DNA of 64,000 bases from an uncultured Cohaesibacter sp. (lineage in GTDB: Bacteria; Pseudomonadota; Alphaproteobacteria; Rhizobiales; Cohaesibacteraceae): positions 1,178,001 to 1,242,000 of the forward strand of contig NZ_OY762905.1 of NCBI RefSeq assembly GCF_963666525.1, given 5' to 3'. A program made the translations under genes and the position numbers. Shown here in pieces: positions 48,673-61,932 of this stretch. Under the pieces are notes generated by a model. It had not been told where the DNA came from. It saw only the letters and a list, made by a program, of their open reading frames with translations, and did no database searches. The stretch's first letter is position 1. Every line of letters begins with the position of its first letter.

Positions 48673-50382
<1,710 letters not shown>

Positions 50383-52089
50383 ATGACGGACCATGCAGCC
50401 TTTAGGGGCTTGGGACAGGCCTTCAGACTTGCGTCTGCGGCCGTCCTGCTGACTGCACTGACATCCATATCAGGACCGGTGATTGGATGGAGCAAAGCCT
50501 ATGCTTCCCCCACCGCCACAGCTGATAAACCATCCACTGAAAAGCAGATTACGGGCAAGAAGCCCGGCGAGACGGCCGACCACAGCAAGTTTGAAATCCT
50601 GCAACAGGATTTCAAGAGCGGGCCGGAAGTCACCAAGGCCTGCCTGTCCTGCCACACAGAAGCGGCCACTCAGGTGCATGATTCCATTCACTGGAAATGG
50701 GAATATGACAATGAGAAAACCGGCCAGAAGCTCGGTAAGCGCTATGTGATCAACGCCTTCTGCGGCAACGTCGCTTCCAACGAAGCCCGCTGCACTTCCT
50801 GCCACGCCGGTTACGGCTGGACGGACATGCGCAAGGATCCACCGGCAGCTCCAGAAGCGGTTGATTGCCTCGTCTGCCACGCAGACACGCAGTATTACAA
50901 GAAATTCCCGGCCAAGGCCGGATTGCCCATCACCGAACCGATGGACTTCAACGGCAAGCCCTTCAAGGTTTCCAACCTGATCGAAGCGGCGCAGTCCGTG
51001 AGCCTGCCACAACGCGACAACTGCGGTGCCTGCCACTATTATGGCGGCGGTGGCGATGGCGTCAAACACGGCGACATCGACAGCTCGCTCAACAAGCCGT
51101 CCAAGGACCTCGACGTCCACATGGCTGCCGACGGTGGCAACATGGCCTGCTCGGCCTGCCATTCCGGTTCGGGCCATGTCTGGCCAGGGTCGCGCTACGA
51201 CATGGAAGCCAAGCCGCAGGCACGCGACGATGAAGGCAAGAAGCTGCCTTCCTTTGCCATGCGTCGCATGAACGAAACCGCCTCCTGCGAGAGCTGCCAC
51301 ACAGATGCTCCCCACCAGGGCAAGACGCTGGCAGCCATCAAACTCAACAACCATACCGACACGGTTGCCTGCCAGACCTGCCATATTCCGGAGTTCGCTC
51401 GCGGCGGCGTTGCCACCAAGATGCTCTGGGACTGGTCGACTGCCGGCAAACTGAAGGATGGCAAGCCCTTCGCTCTCAAGGATGACAAGGGACATCCCAG
51501 CTACGATTCCAAGAAGGGTGACTTCATCTATGAAGAGAATGTCAAGCCAACCTACAGCTGGTTCAACGGGCAGTTCACCTATGTCACCGACAACGATCCG
51601 GTTGATACGTCCAAACCGGTCATCCTCAATGCCCTGGGCGGCAGCGCAAACGACGAGACCGCCCGCATCTGGCCGTTCAAGCTGATGCACACCAAGCAGC
51701 CGATCGATGCGGAAAGCAAGAAGCTTGTCTATATGCATCTGTTCGGCAAGGACTCAGACGCCTTCTGGAAAAGCTTTGACTGGCCGAACGCCATCAAGGC
51801 CGGACAGGAATACATGGGCAAGGACTATTCGGGCAAATTCGAGTTCATCGAAACCCGCATGTGGTGGCCCATCACCCACATGGTTGCTCCGTCGGACAAG
51901 GCCGTGCAGTGCGATGAATGCCACTCCAAGGGCGGCCGTCTCGAAGGTATCGAAGGGGTCTACATTCCCGGGCGGGACGACATGCCCCTCATCAACTGGC
52001 TGGGCTATGGCCTGATCATCCTGACCATTCTGGGCGTGGCCATCCACACGATCTTCCGCATTGCCACCCGCAACCAGCGCCAACACTAG
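50383..52089 (+). CDS. Octaheme c-type cytochrome, tetrathionate reductase family (copy 1)
   Basis: The 568-residue protein has an N-terminal export signal/anchor (residues 12-38), eight CxxCH heme sites (C87, C137, C162, C214, C256, C302, C330, C510 as first cysteines) and a C-terminal transmembrane helix (GYGLIILTILGVAIHTIF, residues 541-558). Order and spacing match the octaheme tetrathionate reductase (OTR) family, whose Shewanella member is soluble and reduces tetrathionate, nitrite and hydroxylamine in vitro. A non-heme cysteine, C127 (NAFCGNVASNE), lies before heme 2 and may be the active-site cysteine. GGGAGGA precedes ATG 50383. The cytochrome b gene follows 13 bp later. Physiological substrate unknown. 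Confidence 0.88.
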   Translation: MTDHAAFRGLGQAFRLASAAVLLTALTSISGPVIGWSKAYASPTATADKPSTEKQITGKKPGETADHSKFEILQQDFKSGPEVTKACLSCHTEAATQVHDSIHWKWEYDNEKTGQKLGKRYVINAFCGNVASNEARCTSCHAGYGWTDMRKDPPAAPEAVDCLVCHADTQYYKKFPAKAGLPITEPMDFNGKPFKVSNLIEAAQSVSLPQRDNCGACHYYGGGGDGVKHGDIDSSLNKPSKDLDVHMAADGGNMACSACHSGSGHVWPGSRYDMEAKPQARDDEGKKLPSFAMRRMNETASCESCHTDAPHQGKTLAAIKLNNHTDTVACQTCHIPEFARGGVATKMLWDWSTAGKLKDGKPFALKDDKGHPSYDSKKGDFIYEENVKPTYSWFNGQFTYVTDNDPVDTSKPVILNALGGSANDETARIWPFKLMHTKQPIDAESKKLVYMHLFGKDSDAFWKSFDWPNAIKAGQEYMGKDYSGKFEFIETRMWWPITHMVAPSDKAVQCDECHSKGGRLEGIEGVYIPGRDDMPLINWLGYGLIILTILGVAIHTIFRIATRNQRQH

Positions 52090-52102
52090 GGAGGACAGAC
52101 AC

Positions 52103-52819
52103 ATGACCGACATGACATCTGCCTCGGGCCCTGCCTCTGGCAAGGCAGAAAGCAGCAAGGCCAAAATCTTTCATCGCAAGGTCAAGAACTACAGTCGCTA
52201 TGAACGCTTCTGGCACTGGTCTCAGGCGATCCTGATCTTCACCCTGGCCTTCTCCGGCTTCACGGTGCACGGGACGATCCGCTTCATCCCGTTCGCCAAG
52301 GCGGTAATGATCCACGATATCGCCGCCTTCGTGCTGATCTTCCTGTGGCTGTTCACGGCCTTCTGGACCTTCACCACCGGACAATGGCGCCATTTCGTGC
52401 CCACCAACGCCGGACTCTGGGACGTCATCATGCACTATCTCGTTGGCATGATGCGTGGTCAGCCCCATCCCTACAAGCGCACACTCAGCCGCAAGCAGAA
52501 CCCGCTGCAGTCCTTTGCCTACTTCTCCATCATGACTGTGGTTGGTCCGTTGCTCTGGCTCTCCGGGCTGGCCTATATGTTCTACAGCTTCTGGGAAGGC
52601 AACTCGGGCAACAACGACATCTTCAGCCTGATCGTGCTATTGCACCTCATCGGGGCTTTCCTGATGGTCGCCTTCGTGATCGGCCATATCTATATGGTCA
52701 CCACGGGCAAGACGCTGATCCATTACACCAAAGCCATGATCACCGGCTTTGAGGACATGGAACTGACGGAAGCCGAGGTCACCTATCTCGAAACCCACGA
52801 ACCGGACCGCATCAAGTAA
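52103..52819 (+). CDS. Cytochrome b, quinone-linked partner of octaheme cytochrome 1
   Basis: The 238-residue protein has four or five transmembrane helices of the cytochrome b561/Ni-Fe hydrogenase b-type family (PF01292). The histidines WHWSQAILIF (helix 1), MIHDIAAFVL (helix 2) and GHIYMVTTGK near the C-terminus are likely heme b ligands. It would link the octaheme cytochrome at the periplasmic face to the quinone pool. GGGAGGA precedes ATG 52103. A terminator follows. Confidence 0.86.
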   Translation: MTDMTSASGPASGKAESSKAKIFHRKVKNYSRYERFWHWSQAILIFTLAFSGFTVHGTIRFIPFAKAVMIHDIAAFVLIFLWLFTAFWTFTTGQWRHFVPTNAGLWDVIMHYLVGMMRGQPHPYKRTLSRKQNPLQSFAYFSIMTVVGPLLWLSGLAYMFYSFWEGNSGNNDIFSLIVLLHLIGAFLMVAFVIGHIYMVTTGKTLIHYTKAMITGFEDMELTEAEVTYLETHEPDRIK

Positions 52820-52847
52820 GAACAACAGCACCGAGCAAACCAGCCAG

Positions 52848-52878
52848 GGTCGCAGCGGCAACGCTGCGGCCTTTTTCT
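52848..52878 (+). terminator. Terminator of the first octaheme module
   Basis: GGTCGCAGC (52848-52856) pairs with GCTGCGGCC (52863-52871), with one G-T pair, followed by TTTTTCTTT. It separates the two modules transcriptionally. Confidence 0.82.
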
Positions 52879-52978
52879 TTGCCTCATGGCGTGACATGTC
52901 GGGGCTCGTTCCCAGCCCTCAATCGGGCGCTAGACAATCGGTTACGACCAAGGACGTGTGACAACGCGCCTCATCAAC

Positions 52979-53012
52979 TATATTCGAATAGCCCAAATAG
53001 GTATTTTATAGT
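52979..53012 (+). promoter_or_regulatory. Promoter of the second octaheme module with a TATTCGAATA palindrome
   Basis: The perfect palindrome TATTCGAATA (52981-52990) covers the expected -35 position of a -10 TATAGT at 53007-53012. The core ATATTCGA recurs in the control regions of the DUF2892 and sqr genes. It is a likely regulator site. Confidence 0.5.
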
Positions 53013-53130
53013 CTTGTTTAAAAGATCTGCTGACACGGTCCGGAGCCGGGTCGGCTTCTCATGACAACCAGATCAGTTTCTGCCGGGAAAGTTGATCTTC
53101 TTGCCTTTTTGCATTTGTTCGGAGGACCAC

Positions 53131-54879
53131 ATGGCGAACTTTGCATTTGGAGGCGGATGGCCACTCGACAGGACCAGCAAGGGATCTGGTCTGGCGGCCT
53201 CTGCCCTCATTCTTATGTCACTGCTATTGCTGCCGGTTGGTAGAGCGTCGGCCGCTTCGGGCGACGCCCTGCCCCATTCGCCGCTCAGCCCGGATGCAAA
53301 GGCCAGCCTGCAGCTTTCTGGCAAGCCAGCTGGCGGCACGGCCGATCACTCCAGGTTCGAGATCCTGCAGCAGGAATTCAAATCCGGCCCCGAGGTCACC
53401 AAGGCCTGCCTTGCCTGCCACACCGAAGCGGCAGACCAGGTGCAGCACACCCTGCACTGGAAATGGGAAACCACCAACGAGGCGACCGGCCAGACCCTTG
53501 GCAAACGGACGGTGATCAACGCCTTCTGCGGCAACGTCGCTTCCAACGAGCCACGCTGCACCTCCTGTCACGCCGGTTATGGCTGGGAGGACATGCGCAA
53601 GGATCCGCCGTCCGAGCCGGAAGCGGTGGATTGCCTTGTCTGCCATGCGGACACTGCCCTCTACAGCAAATACCCGACCAAGGCCGGACATCCGCTCTAT
53701 GAGCCGATAACGGTCAACGGCAAGACGGAGATGCCCCCCGACCTTGGCAAGGCAGCCCGGTCGGTCACCAATCCGCAACGCCAGAATTGCGGCTCCTGCC
53801 ACTATTACGGCGGCGGCGGCGATGGCGTCAAACACGGCGATCTGGACAGTTCTCTGAACCAGCCGGACAAGACGCTCGACGTGCATATGAACAAGGACGG
53901 TCTCAACATGGCCTGCACCGCCTGTCACGCAGGCTCCGGCCATCAATGGCCCGGCTCGCGTTACAGTATGGAGGCCAAGCCGACAACCGTTACCAAGAAT
54001 GGCGAGGAAACAAAGACTGCCAAGATCCGCAAGCTTGATCAGTTGGCCAGCCTGATGGAACCATCGGCGACCTGCGAAAGCTGCCACTCGAACCGCCCCC
54101 ATGACGGCAGCGACCTGATGGGCATCAAGCTCAACGACCACACCGATACGGTTGCCTGCCAGACCTGCCACATCCCCGAATTTGCCCGCGGCGGCGTTGC
54201 CACAAAGACTCTCTGGGACTGGTCAACCGCTGGCAAGCTGAAGGACGGCAAACCCTACAAGGACATGGATGAGCATGGTCACCCCAGCTACATGTCTGAA
54301 AAGGGCAACTTCGAATATGGCGAAAAAATCCAGCCGTTCTATGCCTGGTTCAACGGCGAAACCACATGGACCCTGCTGGACGACAAGATCGATCCCTCCA
54401 AGGTCGTCGAGATCAACGCCCTTGGCGGCTCTCCAAGTGATGGCAAATCGCGCATCTGGCCTTTCAAGCAGATGCTGTCTCGCCAGCCTTATGACATGGA
54501 AACCAACCAGTTGGTCTACAATCATGTCTTCGGCAAGGACGACACGGCCCTCTGGACCAATTTCGACTGGAGCAAATCCGTGCCCGCGGCGATGGACTTC
54601 ATCGGCAAGGACTTCTCCGGCAAGCTCGGCTTTGTCGACACCCACATGTATTGGCCTATCACCCACATGGTCGCGCCGAAAGATCAGGCCGTGCGCTGCA
54701 CTGAGTGCCACGCCAGACAGGGCCGCCTTGATGGCATCACCGGCATCTACATGCCAGGGCGTGACACGTTCAAATGGCTGGACTGGATCGGCTACGCCGC
54801 CTTCGGCCTTACCGTGCTGGGCGTCCTGTTCCACGCCTTGCTGCGCATCATCTTCCGCAATCGCAAGAAACAGGCCTGA
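53131..54879 (+). CDS. Octaheme c-type cytochrome, tetrathionate reductase family (copy 2)
   Basis: The 582-residue paralogue of copy 1 has a signal/anchor segment (residues 20-42), eight CxxCH sites (first cysteines C93, C143, C168, C220, C262, C315, C343, C523) and a C-terminal transmembrane helix (AAFGLTVLGVLFHALLRIIF). The non-heme cysteine is conserved (C133, NAFCGNVASNEPRCTSCH). It differs from copy 1 mainly in a longer loop between hemes 5 and 6 and in the last 60 residues. GGAGGA precedes ATG 53131. The cytochrome b gene follows 11 bp later. The two copies may differ in substrate, redox potential or regulation. Confidence 0.88.
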   Translation: MANFAFGGGWPLDRTSKGSGLAASALILMSLLLLPVGRASAASGDALPHSPLSPDAKASLQLSGKPAGGTADHSRFEILQQEFKSGPEVTKACLACHTEAADQVQHTLHWKWETTNEATGQTLGKRTVINAFCGNVASNEPRCTSCHAGYGWEDMRKDPPSEPEAVDCLVCHADTALYSKYPTKAGHPLYEPITVNGKTEMPPDLGKAARSVTNPQRQNCGSCHYYGGGGDGVKHGDLDSSLNQPDKTLDVHMNKDGLNMACTACHAGSGHQWPGSRYSMEAKPTTVTKNGEETKTAKIRKLDQLASLMEPSATCESCHSNRPHDGSDLMGIKLNDHTDTVACQTCHIPEFARGGVATKTLWDWSTAGKLKDGKPYKDMDEHGHPSYMSEKGNFEYGEKIQPFYAWFNGETTWTLLDDKIDPSKVVEINALGGSPSDGKSRIWPFKQMLSRQPYDMETNQLVYNHVFGKDDTALWTNFDWSKSVPAAMDFIGKDFSGKLGFVDTHMYWPITHMVAPKDQAVRCTECHARQGRLDGITGIYMPGRDTFKWLDWIGYAAFGLTVLGVLFHALLRIIFRNRKKQA

Positions 54880-54890
54880 GGAGACCAATC

Positions 54891-55631
54891 ATGACTGACA
54901 TACCGTCTTCCACCTCGTCTTCTGGCCCGTCTTCCGGCCGATCTGAAGAACTGACCAACCGGCCAGATGTCAAAAAGCGGGCGGTGAAGATCTACACCCG
55001 CTACGAACGCTTCTGGCACTGGTCACAGGCGCTGCTGATCTTCATTCTGGCCTTCTCCGGCTTCAATCTGCATGGCACGCTCTCCCTCGTGCCCTTCCCG
55101 CTGGCGGTCATGGTTCACACCTACGCCGCCCTCCTGCTGCTGGTGCTCTGGCTCTTTACCACCTTCTGGAACTTCACCACCGGACAGTGGCGCCACTATC
55201 TGCCGCAAAACAAGGGATTGTTCGCCGTGATCAAATTCTATGCCTACGGCATCATCATGGGCGCGCCGCACCCCTATTCGAAAAGCCTTGCCCGCAAGCA
55301 GAATGCCCTGCAATCACTGGCCTATCTGACTTTCATGGTCATCATCGGCCCGGCCCTCTGGCTCTCGGGCATCGCCTATCTGCTCTATGGCCTTTGGGAA
55401 ACAATCCAGAACAGCCAGCAGATGTTTTCGCTGGTCGCCTTCGTGCACACGGCAGCCGCCTTTGCCATGATCACCTTCGTCGTCATCCATGTCTACATGA
55501 CGACCACCGGCAAGACGGTGTTCCACTACATCAGGACGATGATTACCGGCTACGAAAAGATCGAACTGACGCCCGCCGAGGAGGCCTATCTGGAAGAGCA
55601 GCAACCGGACATGCTGAAGGCCGACAATTAG
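54891..55631 (+). CDS. Cytochrome b, quinone-linked partner of octaheme cytochrome 2
   Basis: The 246-residue paralogue of the first cytochrome b has the same helices and likely heme-ligand histidines (WHWSQALLIF, MVHTYAALLL, IHVYMTTTGK), and the shared loop TTGQWRHYLPQNKGL. A serine-rich, disordered N-terminus precedes the first helix. TGAGGAG overlaps the stop of the octaheme gene, so translation is likely coupled. Confidence 0.86.
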   Translation: MTDIPSSTSSSGPSSGRSEELTNRPDVKKRAVKIYTRYERFWHWSQALLIFILAFSGFNLHGTLSLVPFPLAVMVHTYAALLLLVLWLFTTFWNFTTGQWRHYLPQNKGLFAVIKFYAYGIIMGAPHPYSKSLARKQNALQSLAYLTFMVIIGPALWLSGIAYLLYGLWETIQNSQQMFSLVAFVHTAAAFAMITFVVIHVYMTTTGKTVFHYIRTMITGYEKIELTPAEEAYLEEQQPDMLKADN

Positions 55632-55655
55632 CTCGAATACCTGCTCCAAAAAAGA

Positions 55656-55687
55656 AGCCGCAGCACATGCTGCGGCTTGTTCTTTGC
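55656..55687. terminator. Bidirectional terminator between cytochrome b and DUF2892 genes
   Basis: A perfect 11-bp stem, AAGCCGCAGCA (55656-55666) with TGCTGCGGCTT (55669-55679), has T-rich tails on both strands and lies between convergent genes. Confidence 0.85.
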
Positions 55688-56192: not shown

Positions 56193-58718
56193 ATGAAATT
56201 GCCAGAGACTCTTTTTAATGACCGGATCAAAGATCGGAAAAGAAAGCGCCATAGCATTGCACTGCACCCAAAAGCCGATCTCGAGCATTCCTTTTCCAAA
56301 GCCTTCAAGATCTGGATCGGCGCCTACGCGCTGATTGTCGCCGTAGCCCTGACTGTAACCTTTGGCTCCCAGGCTCATTCCAGCCCGGCCACAGCCGTCA
56401 GCCCGCAAGCGGTTCCCATTGCCTCCCCTCTCCTCGTCACCCCCGATGACATGCAATCGGGTGGCCTTCTGTTCAAGGCCAAGGAGGCGGGCAAATATAT
56501 TGAAGCCCCGAAAGTCGCCACCGACATCAAGGTCGACGTCACCGGCCCGGTTGCGCGTACCATCGTGACGCAAAAATTTCTCAATCCGAGCGATGCCTGG
56601 GTGGAAGGGATCTATGTCTTTCCGCTGCCGGATACCGCCGCTGTCGACCAGTTGAAGATGAAGATCGGCGACAGGATCATCGAAGGCAAGATCAAGCCAC
56701 GGGAAGAAGCGCGCCAGATCTATGAAACCGCCAAACAGGAAGGCAAGAAGGCGAGCCTCCTGGAACAGCAGCGCCCCAATCTGTTTACCAACGCCGTGGC
56801 CAATATCGGCCCGAATGACTCGGTTACCATCCAGATCGAATACCAGCAGACCATTCCGCGCAAGGACGAGGAATTCTCCCTGCGTGTGCCGCTGGTCGTC
56901 GCACCGCGCTACAACCCTCTCGCCAAGCCACTGCAGCCGGTCATCGACCTCAAGGCCAACCAGTCCGATGGTGGCAACGGCTGGTCCAGCACGGACCCTG
57001 TGCCGGACCGCGACACCATCACCGCCCCCGTGCTCGACCCGGAGAAGGCTGGCAAGAGCAATCCGGTCAGTCTCAGTATAGATCTGAAAGCCGGCTTCCC
57101 CCTCGACAAGGTCGTCAGCCACTATCATGACGTGGTCATCAAGCCGGTTGATAGCAAGGAAATGTCCCTCAGCCTCAAGGGCGAGGCTGTTCCGGCAGAC
57201 AAGGATTTCCTCCTGACCTGGACTGGCAAGCCGACCGAAACCCCGAACCTTGGCCTCTTCAGCCAGACCCTCAAGGATGACCCCACCGGGCGTCAGACCG
57301 GAGATGGCCAGAAGAAGGAAGCCAATGGCGAGGAACGGGAAGAGGAAACCCTCTCTGAGGGCGACGCCGACCAGTATCTGCTTGCCTATATCACCCCGCC
57401 TTACAAGCTGGCCAAGGACTTGCAGACGCCGCCACGCGAGGTCGTCTTCGTCATTGACCAATCTGGTTCGATGGATGGCCCGTCCATCCTGCAGGCCAGA
57501 GAAAGCCTGATTGAAGCCCTCGGCCAACTGAGGCCGGAAGACAAATTCCAGATCATCCGCTTCAACAACGAAATGGCGCAGCTGTTCCCATCGCCTCAGC
57601 CAGCCGACAAGGAAAACCTGTCAACGGCCCGCTACTGGGTAGCCGCAATCCGGGCCGAGGGGGGCACCGAGATGCTTCCGGCGATGCAGGCTGCGCTGAG
57701 AGATGTAAACCCGAACGCTCCGACCCTGCGGCAGGTGATCTTCCTCACCGACGGTGCCATCGGCAACGAGCGTGAACTGTTCGAAACCGTCAAGGCGCAG
57801 AAAGGTCGCTCCCGCATCTTCACCGTCGGCATCGGCTCTGCCCCCAACAGCTTCTTCATGTCCCGCGCTGCCGAAGTCGGTCGCGGCACCTTCACCCAGA
57901 TCGGAGACATCACGGAAGTCAAAGGCAAGATGGCCGAGCTGTTCACCCAGCTGACAACCCCGGTTGCCACCGACCTCAGCATTTCCTTTGCCAACGGCAA
58001 GAACATCGAGGCATCCCCGAGCGAACTGCCCGACCTCTACAAGGGAGAGCCCGTCATCGTCGCTTTCAAGGGCAAGGATCTGGGTAACGAGCTGACCCTC
58101 AGCGGTCGCTTTGACAATCAACCATGGTCGATGACCGTGGACATAACCAAGGCAGCACCGTCCGCCGCCGTCGACAAGCTGTGGGCCCGTGGCAAGATCC
58201 GTCAGTTGGAGAATGAGCGTCTGTTGTCTACCGACAGCGCCGGTATCGACAAGGCGATCGAGACCCTCGGCCTCCGTCACCATCTGGTGACACGCCTCAC
58301 CAGCCTCGTCGCCGTGGATGTGACTCCAGCTCGACCGGAAGGCGAAACACTGGACAGCCGCAAGGTGCCGCTCAACCTGCCAGACGGCTGGAACATGGAT
58401 GCTGTCTTCGGGGAAGAGCCCCAGCCTCAGCCATCCATGGCCCCCAATGCTCCAACGGGATCCGCGGCTCCGATGCGAGCACTCAAACGCAGCTTCGGCT
58501 TCAGTGCTCCGGCGATGAAAGCGATGGCCACGAGCCCTGCCCCGGACAGCAACGCCAGAGTGGCATCTCTGGTACCGACCGGCGGTAATCAGATCCTGCT
58601 GCCGAAAACGGCAACCCCGGCCAGCCTGTTGATCCTCGCAGGCATAGCCCTGCTGACACTGGCAGGCGCCCTGCTCGCCTGGCTGCAATGGCGCAAGATC
58701 GCACCGGAGCTGCGCTGA
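56193..58718 (+). CDS. VIT/vWA protein, marine proteobacterial sortase target
   Basis: The 841-residue surface protein has an N-terminal transmembrane/signal region (residues about 40-65), a VIT domain (residues about 110-235), a von Willebrand A domain with MIDAS motif VIDQSGSMDG near residue 424 and FLTDG later, and a C-terminal sorting signal: LPKTA at 803-807, a hydrophobic helix (LLILAGIALLTLAGALLAWL) and a basic tail. This is the known TIGR03788-type substrate always paired with a class GN sortase. It is presumably cleaved at LPKTA and attached to an unknown acceptor at the cell envelope. The sortase gene follows 80 bp later. Confidence 0.9.
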   Translation: MKLPETLFNDRIKDRKRKRHSIALHPKADLEHSFSKAFKIWIGAYALIVAVALTVTFGSQAHSSPATAVSPQAVPIASPLLVTPDDMQSGGLLFKAKEAGKYIEAPKVATDIKVDVTGPVARTIVTQKFLNPSDAWVEGIYVFPLPDTAAVDQLKMKIGDRIIEGKIKPREEARQIYETAKQEGKKASLLEQQRPNLFTNAVANIGPNDSVTIQIEYQQTIPRKDEEFSLRVPLVVAPRYNPLAKPLQPVIDLKANQSDGGNGWSSTDPVPDRDTITAPVLDPEKAGKSNPVSLSIDLKAGFPLDKVVSHYHDVVIKPVDSKEMSLSLKGEAVPADKDFLLTWTGKPTETPNLGLFSQTLKDDPTGRQTGDGQKKEANGEEREEETLSEGDADQYLLAYITPPYKLAKDLQTPPREVVFVIDQSGSMDGPSILQARESLIEALGQLRPEDKFQIIRFNNEMAQLFPSPQPADKENLSTARYWVAAIRAEGGTEMLPAMQAALRDVNPNAPTLRQVIFLTDGAIGNERELFETVKAQKGRSRIFTVGIGSAPNSFFMSRAAEVGRGTFTQIGDITEVKGKMAELFTQLTTPVATDLSISFANGKNIEASPSELPDLYKGEPVIVAFKGKDLGNELTLSGRFDNQPWSMTVDITKAAPSAAVDKLWARGKIRQLENERLLSTDSAGIDKAIETLGLRHHLVTRLTSLVAVDVTPARPEGETLDSRKVPLNLPDGWNMDAVFGEEPQPQPSMAPNAPTGSAAPMRALKRSFGFSAPAMKAMATSPAPDSNARVASLVPTGGNQILLPKTATPASLLILAGIALLTLAGALLAWLQWRKIAPELR

Positions 58719-58798
58719 TACATACATGACAATCCGCACAATCCGCGCACGGGGCCACTCCGTGCGCGGCATCAACCACCATGCATCACAGGAACACC

Positions 58799-59473
58799 AT
58801 GAGATACCCCCGCCCCACGCAGTATAATTTAGGCACACTTTGTGCCGTGGCTCTTGGACTGCTGGGGCTGGGGTTGCTGATCTGGGGCAGTTGGATCCCC
58901 ATCAAGGCGCAACTGGCGCAGGTCCTTTTGGAGCGCGCCTGGCAACAGAGCAGAGCGGATGGCATGCCACACAAGGCATGGCCATGGGCTGACAGTTGGC
59001 CGGTCGCCCGCCTGACCATCCCATCCCTTGATCTCCAGACCATCATCCTCAAGGAAGCCGGTGGCGAAGGGCTAGCTTTCGGTCCCGTTCTGCTTGCGCA
59101 GGGAGCGCGACTGGGTACGGCAGGCACGAGCATCATCGCCGCTCATCGGGACACCCATTTCCAGCCCCTCCAGCAACTTCAGACCGGAGCCATGGTGGAG
59201 ATCGAACAGATGTCTGGCCCTACGCTTACCTATCGCATCGACGGCAGCAAGATCGTTCGCTGGGACCAGTCGGGCCTGCAGAAGGACAGTCCGAGCCCGT
59301 TGCTGGTGCTCTCATCCTGTTGGCCGTTTGACGGCATGGTCGGCGGTCCCTTGCGCTATCTCGCCTTTGCAAGCCCAACCGAGGCAACCACCCGCCTGCT
59401 GACAGGAGCCACCCCCGCTCCGGTCCCGACCCGGCTGGCGGCCTTCACCGGGGCTGCGTCACAACGCCCCTGA
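58799..59473 (+). CDS. Class GN sortase
   Basis: The 224-residue transpeptidase has one N-terminal membrane helix (VALGLLGLGLLIWGSWI) and the sortase catalytic triad: H116 (IIAAHRDTH), C174 (LVLSSCWPF) and R186 (GGPLRYL). Class GN is the gram-negative group dedicated to one neighbouring vWA substrate. ATG 58799 has AGGA five bases upstream; ATG 58781 in the same frame is less likely. The active site faces the periplasm. Confidence 0.92.
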   Translation: MRYPRPTQYNLGTLCAVALGLLGLGLLIWGSWIPIKAQLAQVLLERAWQQSRADGMPHKAWPWADSWPVARLTIPSLDLQTIILKEAGGEGLAFGPVLLAQGARLGTAGTSIIAAHRDTHFQPLQQLQTGAMVEIEQMSGPTLTYRIDGSKIVRWDQSGLQKDSPSPLLVLSSCWPFDGMVGGPLRYLAFASPTEATTRLLTGATPAPVPTRLAAFTGAASQRP

Positions 59474-60660: not shown

Positions 60661-61932
60661 TCACTTCTTGATCTTGGCAATATCCAGAAGGCTCAGAACG
60701 GCCTTCTCGTAATATGGCTCGGTCTCACCGATGCGGATCTTGCGCAGGAAGTATTTTTCGAAAGCAATCTTGGCCAGGTGAACCCACTTGCCCTGCCCCG
60801 AATAGTTTGTGTTGCGTGGCGGGATCTGTGGCATAGCAACAAAGGCCAGCCCGGAATCGCCAAAGTCGGCAAGACAGATCGCATTCCATGTCGCTTCATG
60901 GGAAGGCTCTTGACCGGCCAGAATTTCCTTCAGGTTCTTGGCAGAAGCAGTCACCATCGACTCGATCATGTAACCGGTCTTGGGAACACCCACCGGAACC
61001 GGCGTCTTTTCATAAGGAGGAATGGCTATGCAGACGCCAATGCCGAAGATGTTGGGATATTTCGGGTTGCGCTGGTGCTTGTCGACGATGACGAAGCCAC
61101 GCGGATTGACCAGCCCCTCGATGCCCTGAAGGGCAGGAATGCCGCGGAAGGCCGGCAGCATCATCGAATGCTTGAACGGCAGCTCATGCTTCTGCTTTTC
61201 CGATCCGTCCTCGTTGACTTCGGTAACATACATGACACCGGCTTCAACCTTGTCGACCTTGGCGTTGGTGATCCATTTCACCGTACGGTCACGCATGGCC
61301 GATTCCAGCATACCCTTGGTGTCGCCCACCCCGCCGAGGCCGAGATGCCCGACATAGGGTTCGGACGTCACGAAGGTCATGGGCACCTTGTCGCGGATCT
61401 GGCGCTTGCGCAGATCCGTATCGAAGATCATCGCCGTTTCATAGGCCGGACCATAACAGGAGGCGCCCTGAACCGCACCAACCACGATCGGTCCCGGATC
61501 CTTGCAGAAGGCTTCCCACTTTTCATAGCCGGCGGTGGCATGATCGACGTCGCACACCGAGATGGTGTTGCCTTCCGGCCCCAGTCCCTCGATCTCGTCA
61601 AAGGCCAGTTCCGGCCCAGTCGCGATCACCAGATAATCATAGGCAACGGTCGAGCCGTCAGCCAGACCGATCGAATTATGCTCCGGATCAACGCTGGTGA
61701 CTGCGGAGCAGATGAAATCCACCTTGTTCTTCGGCAGAACCGTCGCCAGATCCAGGGTGATGTCCTTTTTCTTACGCCACCCGACGGCAACCCACGGGTT
61801 GGACGGGGTGAACTGGAAGAATGGCTTGTTGGAAACCACGGTTACCTTGTCCGTCTTGGACAATTTCTGGCGGATTTCATAAGCTGCCGAAAGACCGCCA
61901 AGACCTCCCCCCATAACAACTACGTGCGTCAT
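60661..61932 (-). CDS. sqr: Sulfide:quinone oxidoreductase
   Basis: The 423-residue FAD protein has the N-terminal Rossmann motif VVVMGGGLGGLSAAYEI and the three cysteines of the Acidithiobacillus-type SQR: C127 (SVCDVDHA), C159 (GAVQGASCYGPAYE) and C353 (NAICLADFGD), the last two forming the catalytic disulfide. VPKTGYMIESM and the C-terminal amphipathic helices that insert in the membrane also match. It oxidises sulfide to sulfur/polysulfide or a persulfide acceptor and reduces quinone. Upstream on the minus strand is a TAGTATT/AATATTA-type dyad. Confidence 0.9.
   Translation of the reverse strand: MTHVVVMGGGLGGLSAAYEIRQKLSKTDKVTVVSNKPFFQFTPSNPWVAVGWRKKKDITLDLATVLPKNKVDFICSAVTSVDPEHNSIGLADGSTVAYDYLVIATGPELAFDEIEGLGPEGNTISVCDVDHATAGYEKWEAFCKDPGPIVVGAVQGASCYGPAYETAMIFDTDLRKRQIRDKVPMTFVTSEPYVGHLGLGGVGDTKGMLESAMRDRTVKWITNAKVDKVEAGVMYVTEVNEDGSEKQKHELPFKHSMMLPAFRGIPALQGIEGLVNPRGFVIVDKHQRNPKYPNIFGIGVCIAIPPYEKTPVPVGVPKTGYMIESMVTASAKNLKEILAGQEPSHEATWNAICLADFGDSGLAFVAMPQIPPRNTNYSGQGKWVHLAKIAFEKYFLRKIRIGETEPYYEKAVLSLLDIAKIKK

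Follow-up and report, generated by a model that had tools for sequence, protein, structure and literature searches.

Tandem duplication of a membrane-anchored octaheme cytochrome c and cytochrome b module in Cohaesibacter

At positions 50383–55631 (+ strand) of the window analysed here, a 64,000-nucleotide stretch of the genome of an uncultured Cohaesibacter sp. (one contig, 5.18 Mb), four genes lie as two tandem pairs, each composed of an octaheme cytochrome c and a cytochrome b. Module A consists of occ1 (50383–52089, +; 568 amino acids, aa) and cyb1 (52103–52819, +; 238 aa), and module B of occ2 (53131–54879, +; 582 aa) and cyb2 (54891–55631, +; 246 aa), with gaps of 13 bases between occ1 and cyb1, 11 bases between occ2 and cyb2, and 311 bases between the pairs. 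All four genes start with ATG closely preceded by a GGAG-type stretch, and their products are 96–99% identical to counterparts in C. haloalkalitolerans. An earlier note on this DNA had described two complete pairs of this kind, with OTR-family octahemes bearing eight CxxCH motifs apiece; both statements hold, at these exact coordinates and with matches to TIGR04315, PF11783 and PF01292.

Profile matches and alignment place both octahemes in the OTR family. Against TIGR04315 they score 609.8 (occ1) and 610.3 bits (occ2), the cut-off being 375, over positions 1–440 of its 440; PF11783 is matched far over cut-off, and no HAO family appears among the Pfam and NCBIfam matches listed at E 0.001. Each has exactly eight CxxCH motifs and no CxxCK. 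In the PDB, only one entry matches their sequences at E 0.001, the Shewanella protein 1sp3, a soluble periplasmic protein, aligned near full length to occ1 (residues 6–422 of 443, E 9.9e–103) and, in two stretches, to occ2 (residues 6–423, E 4.3e–103). The positions aligned to Cys64, Asp150 and Lys153 of the 1sp3 active site are retained in copies A and B, and the conserved lysine (Lys228 and Lys234 in the two copies) is a putative heme ligand. A lysine ligand outside the motifs is described for OTR (PMC12285233). Among 142 columns conserved at ≥95% in 94 other OTRs (L080 excluded), seven are not fully kept in copy A and eight in copy B, and these include no Cys, His or Lys. The window proteins differ from 1sp3 in that both have a C-terminal hydrophobic segment, a membrane helix with a conserved histidine, ahead of which the 1sp3 alignment stops, and a dedicated cytochrome b adjoining. 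This helix is the only usable part of the AlphaFold octaheme model (pLDDT 58.4); in occ2 it comprises model residues 548–579 (54772–54867, +) and contains His568, and the histidine of the occ1 helix is His555 (codon 52045–52047, +).

Both cytochromes b match PF01292. Four histidines (His38, 71, 181 and 195 in cyb1; His43, 76, 186 and 200 in cyb2) are invariant in 118 of the 118 cytochromes b compared, the last pair being spaced HX13H; the set was 119 distinct sequences minus one 108-aa fragment, from the window and the first 117 loci described below (L045–L161). The AlphaFold model of cyb2 (pLDDT 84.5) has in Foldseek a sole match at E 0.001, to FdnI, the gamma subunit of formate dehydrogenase-N (1kqf_C; E 6e–5, TM 0.63/0.70). 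By sequence profile, hydrogenase-1 cytochrome b alone is matched, at E 0.029, and the best NCBIfam match, the PhsC-type NF011582, is under its cut-off (117.3 and 118.7 vs. 204 bits). From its four conserved histidines and modelled fold the subunit is FdnI-like, and the histidines would bind heme; it differs from FdnI and the PhsC-type cytochromes in its partner, which is an octaheme c instead of an iron–sulfur protein.

The same pairing recurs among relatives. We collected a first set of 117 loci (15 from the genus, 22 from the order and class, and 80 named best matches to occ2, with some genomes present twice and the order-level G067 not included) and a second set of 40 phylum-wide loci, from 49 over-cut-off places not already in hand (nine left out); the named set is biased to the window's relatives, and the phylum sample is less biased. 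A cytochrome b lies directly downstream of the OTR in 116 of the 117 first-set loci. With distinctness judged by the last 300 residues there were 158 OTR frames, one of them the downstream piece of a broken copy in genome G011, and 152 have a hydrophobic C-terminal anchor. All 152 have a cytochrome b, either in an adjoining frame (149), fused (two, L209 and L211), or, at L072, missed by our distance rule and counted from tblastn. The six unanchored OTRs (L186, L188, L193, L197, L207 and L080, the last on a 3.5-kb contig with only 1,120 bases remaining downstream) have no small cytochrome b alongside; four show no cytochrome b match, and the other two each adjoin the gene of a large protein (L193 1245–3518, –; L207 3841–7515, +) that combines c-type heme domains with a C-terminal cytochrome b domain and possibly represents a second multiheme/cytochrome b class. 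In the samples examined, anchored OTRs are as a rule paired with a cytochrome b, and the unit is widespread and not particular to the window. An OTR over cut-off was found in 16 of 20 genomes in a family search, and in 29 of 297, 3 of 385 and 45 of 398 genomes sampled from the order, class and phylum, respectively (own genome included).

The earlier note knew of no described function for a paired, cytochrome b-linked arrangement; taken to mean that the arrangement is undescribed, this is thereby overstated, the more so as a cluster of Otr and cytochrome b561 is mentioned for the Ignavibacteria genome Ch128a (PMC7509429). That two-gene arrangement is as in the window, and electron supply from the quinone pool is proposed for it; the case differs in being a genome annotation that names one cluster, and the parts of the paper seen do not analyse an anchor, its histidine or a duplication. 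A further likeness is to modules of a tail-anchored iron–sulfur protein, a HybB-like quinol oxidase and an OTR-family octaheme (PMC10924467), where quinone-linked membrane proteins are likewise encoded alongside the octaheme; in those modules HybA/HybB-like proteins provide the anchored and the quinone component, whereas in the window the octaheme itself is tail-anchored and the quinone protein would be a cytochrome b.

Two further features of the family involve the membrane part. The anchor-helix histidine is present in 117 of 117 sequences at its aligned column, and a histidine stands at tail positions 38–43 in all 152 anchored OTR tails. FdnI-type cytochromes handle quinone near the cytoplasmic side of the membrane, and the anchor histidine should sit near that side, the helix running inward from a periplasmic enzyme; it may touch a b heme or the quinone. 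Second, at L211 (2970–5834, +) and L209 (1842–4601, –), both in genomes of the same phylum, OTR, cytochrome b and response-regulator receiver form one chain, with PF11783, PF01292 and PF00072 all over cut-off. A receiver domain also follows the membrane part in all eight long cytochrome b frames tested (L199, L202, L204, L212, L213, L215, L216 and L217; L205 and L214, also listed, were left out of the test), which points to a tie between the complex and signalling in some lineages. As a tentative and rather doubtful extension, the tail-anchored OTR/cytochrome b unit might be a distinct enzyme class, with the anchor histidine forming part of a heme or quinone site that the cytochrome b has in the membrane. 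Where a receiver is fused, electron flow might then be sensed or controlled on the cytoplasmic side, and Cohaesibacter might retain one version for each of two redox conditions. In the literature searched, mostly outside subscription papers and seen in part, neither the tandem duplication nor the anchor histidine nor the fusions to a receiver were found described.

The two modules of the window are not near-identical recent duplicates, the outcome that the earlier note had named beforehand as counting against a specialised two-module system: copies A and B are 61% identical in the OTR and 56% in the cytochrome b, A forms clades of its own, and each copy bears the marks of purifying selection. 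In a tree of 118 OTRs, made by a quick method, with several long outer branches and the broken G011 copy excluded, the 23 Cohaesibacter sequences form one clade (support 100), inside which the eight copy A sequences are a clade (support 100) on a long stem (0.5), copy B being the remainder. Since the cytochrome b tree splits alike (nine cyb1 sequences in a clade at 100/100), the whole pair was duplicated, in tandem, within Cohaesibacter. Both copies are intact in seven of the 18 genus genomes (G000, G003, G005, G010, G012, G013 and G016); G004 has A only, G011 a broken A with an intact B, seven have B only, and two have neither (G008, and G007, which is 64% complete). In the G011 copy A (L053 10801–12587) the octaheme is split over two frames followed by a cytochrome b frame, either a pseudogene or a sequencing error. 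We read the distribution of A as one gain and repeated loss.

A rival view is that the second copy is a dispensable duplicate reflecting dosage or drift, without specialisation and heading for loss. In its favour, both copies survive intact in under half of the genus, A is split in G011, and it is gone from 8 of the 17 genomes on an EF-G tree, including G017, near-identical in EF-G to the A-bearing G016. Copy A nevertheless has a low mean dN/dS over deep divergence, 0.11 (27 of 28 pairs), close to the 0.096 of copy B (51 of 105 pairs; pairs with dS 0.05–1.5 were used, the remainder falling outside these limits), so that by sequence both copies are under purifying selection. All eight unbroken A copies keep the eight heme motifs, and each of the nine A upstream regions contains a dyad peculiar to A (below). 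We consider dispensability unlikely. Thirteen positions are fixed differently between all A and all B sequences, with the family-majority residue kept by B in seven, by A in one and by neither in five; of the two, copy B has changed less and is retained in more genomes, and copy A diverged on its stem and was lost several times.

Upstream sequences separate the copies further. An ATTAC-N6-GTAAT dyad lies 5′ of module A only (50199–50214, unstranded); in the genus it occurs in 9 of 9 copy A upstream regions, with identical arms and a variable spacer, and in 0 of 15 copy B regions. None of 124 upstream regions from other genera has it, nor does any of 2480 background windows. Next to it is a GACA-N3-TGTC dyad (50184–50194, unstranded), to which a degenerate site 5′ of module B (52957–52973, +) is related. 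The motif shared by the two, TGYGACA-N3-TGTC-N-CA, has one mismatch in the window's copy A and two in copy B over 13 specified bases. Sites with two mismatches or fewer are present in 8 of the 9 A regions and 12 of the 15 B regions, compared with 74 of 2000 random windows from the same loci; G010 has four mismatches in both copies, at chance level, and the G015 site is located elsewhere. We regard the shared motif as a weak case. Its GACA-N3-TGTC core did not behave as a general OTR signal, occurring in 1 of 124 non-genus upstream regions vs. 12 of 2480 background windows; it may resemble RegA/ActR sites. Searching the 24 genus upstream regions for the FNR consensus TTGAT-N4-ATCAA gave three sites, one in G010 copy A with a single mismatch and two, in G004 copy A and G010 copy B, with two mismatches each; none lay upstream of the window's modules.

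Transcription of the modules is probably separate, to judge by the sequence between and before them. The terminator that the earlier note placed between the pairs is borne out by a terminator-like hairpin at 52846–52873 (+): a hairpin of ≥10 pairs with a T-rich tail separates the modules in all eight genus loci that have both positions, vs. 10 of 200 random 300-base windows from the same loci. Another terminator-like hairpin lies 3′ of module B (55655–55678) and reads on either strand; over the region the scan gave 12 terminator-like sites, vs. 6.5 (standard deviation 3.1) in shuffles. An Rfam match to ctRNA_p42d at 52842–52882 (25 bits, gathering score 50) lies on the first hairpin and was taken as chance. 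The separate promoters also proposed have indirect support only: a sigma-70 scan gave three sites where 2.6 were expected, none 5′ of either octaheme, but each upstream region contains blocks conserved across the genus. In the leader of copy A (50243–50382) a GAGTCTG/CAGACTC pairing is kept in 9 of 9 sequences, partly via G–U changes. We do not claim a structured leader RNA there: 24 predicted pairs showed no two-sided changes, and the covariation term was unfavourable (+1.14).

With an operator-like dyad specific to A (9 of 9 vs. 0 of 15), specialisation on the regulatory side is the best supported, and divergence in regulation is better supported by the sequences than divergence in catalysis. 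This upholds one part of the earlier note's suggestion of specialisation; the parts that envisaged different substrates or opposite electron flow found no support here. Active-site residues are unchanged in both copies. That one copy is a reductase and the other a dehydrogenase would agree with their separate tree groups and differing upstream sites, yet active-site and heme-ligand positions are identical in the two and both have the same kind of cytochrome b, and we think it very improbable. Given its diverged stem, its own dyad and its several losses, copy A is most likely a conditionally expressed isoform.

What the sequences show is a set of parts that are constantly paired, ligand and active-site positions that are conserved, and natural fusions; from these we infer complex formation, topology, direction and substrate as follows. 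Each pair would form one inner-membrane complex, with the periplasmic OTR-type octaheme docked through its own C-terminal helix on an FdnI-like diheme cytochrome b. Quinol would be oxidised at the cytochrome b and electrons passed via the b hemes into the eight-heme chain; the lysine-ligated heme would receive them and reduce a small periplasmic compound, which by analogy with Shewanella OTR may be tetrathionate, nitrite or hydroxylamine. Copy A would most likely carry out the same reaction under shifted regulation, perhaps with tuned affinity. We hold this overall reading, a quinone-linked membrane OTR complex running reductively with copy A as a conditionally expressed isoform, with slightly more belief than doubt, and favour the quinol-driven reductive direction with modest confidence. 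Shewanella OTR reduces tetrathionate, nitrite and hydroxylamine (PMC4484225), and OTR is described as a reductase also in PMC10986466; its physiological contribution has been called unclear (PMC10949509), and in Caldithrix abyssi, which has an Otr homologue, growth tests failed to bear out the predicted sulfur-compound respiration (PMC5317091).

Several points weigh against this reading. On the EF-G tree the presence of A requires five changes, and as few were seen in 151 of 500 shuffles, so A is scattered. In the window's own genome the ATTAC-N6-GTAAT dyad occurs at two places, as expected from base composition (2.0; a backward-read control gave 0), and the second place lies 18 bases 5′ of a gene resembling, by eye, that of an ABC-transporter binding protein; no regulon therefore supports the dyad. 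Four of the 13 fixed A/B differences (A181, 184, 196 and 197) fall in one loop ahead of the fourth heme motif, which could alter substrate access (the loop is not placeable in the OTR model at its pLDDT of 58). FdnI itself runs in the quinone-reducing direction, and tetrathionate reduction by ubiquinol would be thermodynamically poor.

In a serious rival reading the complex takes electrons from a reduced sulfur compound (e.g., by oxidising thiosulfate to tetrathionate) and passes them to the quinone pool via the cytochrome b. In its favour, the cytochrome b is FdnI-like, and some hosts of the module are Thioclava, Rhodovulum and Paracoccus, genera known for sulfur oxidation. Shewanella OTR, too, is cited for thiosulfate oxidation to tetrathionate (PMC6548844), which also tells against reduction, and otr adjoins soxYZ genes in lucinid symbionts (PMC11237559). 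In the window, a protein resembling sulfide:quinone reductase (SQR) is encoded at 60661–61932, but 5 kb off, on the other strand, and with 98.5 bits where the NCBIfam SQR cut-off is 525. Neither SoxB over cut-off nor a SoxA/TsdA domain was found in the window's own genome or in any of the seven two-module genomes, and with OTR described elsewhere as reducing tetrathionate, nitrite and hydroxylamine we judge the oxidative direction rather improbable. SoxB over cut-off was found in 7 of the 11 other genus genomes, and the SoxA/TsdA domain in the same seven. An anticorrelation of the two modules with Sox was considered and dropped as confounded with kinship, Sox changing once on the EF-G tree and the independent pairs being too few.

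In a further rival reading the module would reduce nitrite or hydroxylamine, with OTR replacing NrfA for ammonification or detoxification. NrfA (PF02335) is matched in none of the 18 genus genomes, the window's own included, where the octahemes also lack CxxCK, and nitrite and hydroxylamine are both reduced by the Shewanella enzyme (PMC4484225). The own genome has no match over cut-off to NapA or NarG, however, and across the genus (NapA in five genomes, NarG in two) only 6 of the 16 OTR-bearing genomes have either, so a nitrate-to-ammonium chain is no general fit; OTR follows neither nitrate reduction nor Sox in the genus. Weaker molybdoenzyme and SoxB-like matches are present in the own genome, and the sub-cut-off molybdoenzyme matches (a 900-aa frame with 165.7 bits on NapA) possibly leave another nitrite source, or nitrite may be external. 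We see this role as conceivable and on the whole improbable.

Neighbouring genes, which the earlier note had called conserved, are so within the genus and not outside it. An EF-G-like gene upstream and a sortase target protein downstream flank the modules in 15 of 16 genus loci, those of G015 being located elsewhere. In 95 distinct non-genus loci the cytochrome b is the only flanking gene that recurs generally (clusters were named by eye without family search, and many, being antisense shadows, were disregarded), and an attempt to read function from neighbours was dropped for that reason. Many non-genus flanks resemble housekeeping genes, and a Crp/Fnr-like gene is within the nearest five at four loci (L067, L088, L090 and L161). 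In the window, module B is directly followed on the opposite strand by a small YgaP-like membrane protein (PF11127; 55732–55935, –), and a marine proteobacterial sortase target protein with a class GN sortase occupies 56193–59473. The gene at 60661–61932 (–), an FAD oxidoreductase with weak likeness to type III SQR, recurs downstream in many genus loci.

The pair is thus ordinary for anchored OTRs, and its duplication with differing upstream sites is a variant at the level of the genus; of greater interest is the wider pattern, in which an anchored OTR with a conserved anchor histidine goes with an FdnI-like cytochrome b. Environmental genome papers take otr as a marker of tetrathionate reduction (e.g., PMC11237559). 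That use rests on the soluble Shewanella enzyme, whereas most OTRs in our samples are membrane-anchored and constantly have an FdnI-like cytochrome b as partner. The bioenergetics would then be different, with a direct link to quinone and charge possibly moved across the membrane. Both the anchor histidine and the fusions to a receiver domain are concrete, testable handles on such a complex, and a genus with two diverged versions and different upstream sites offers a natural comparison for finding its substrate and direction.

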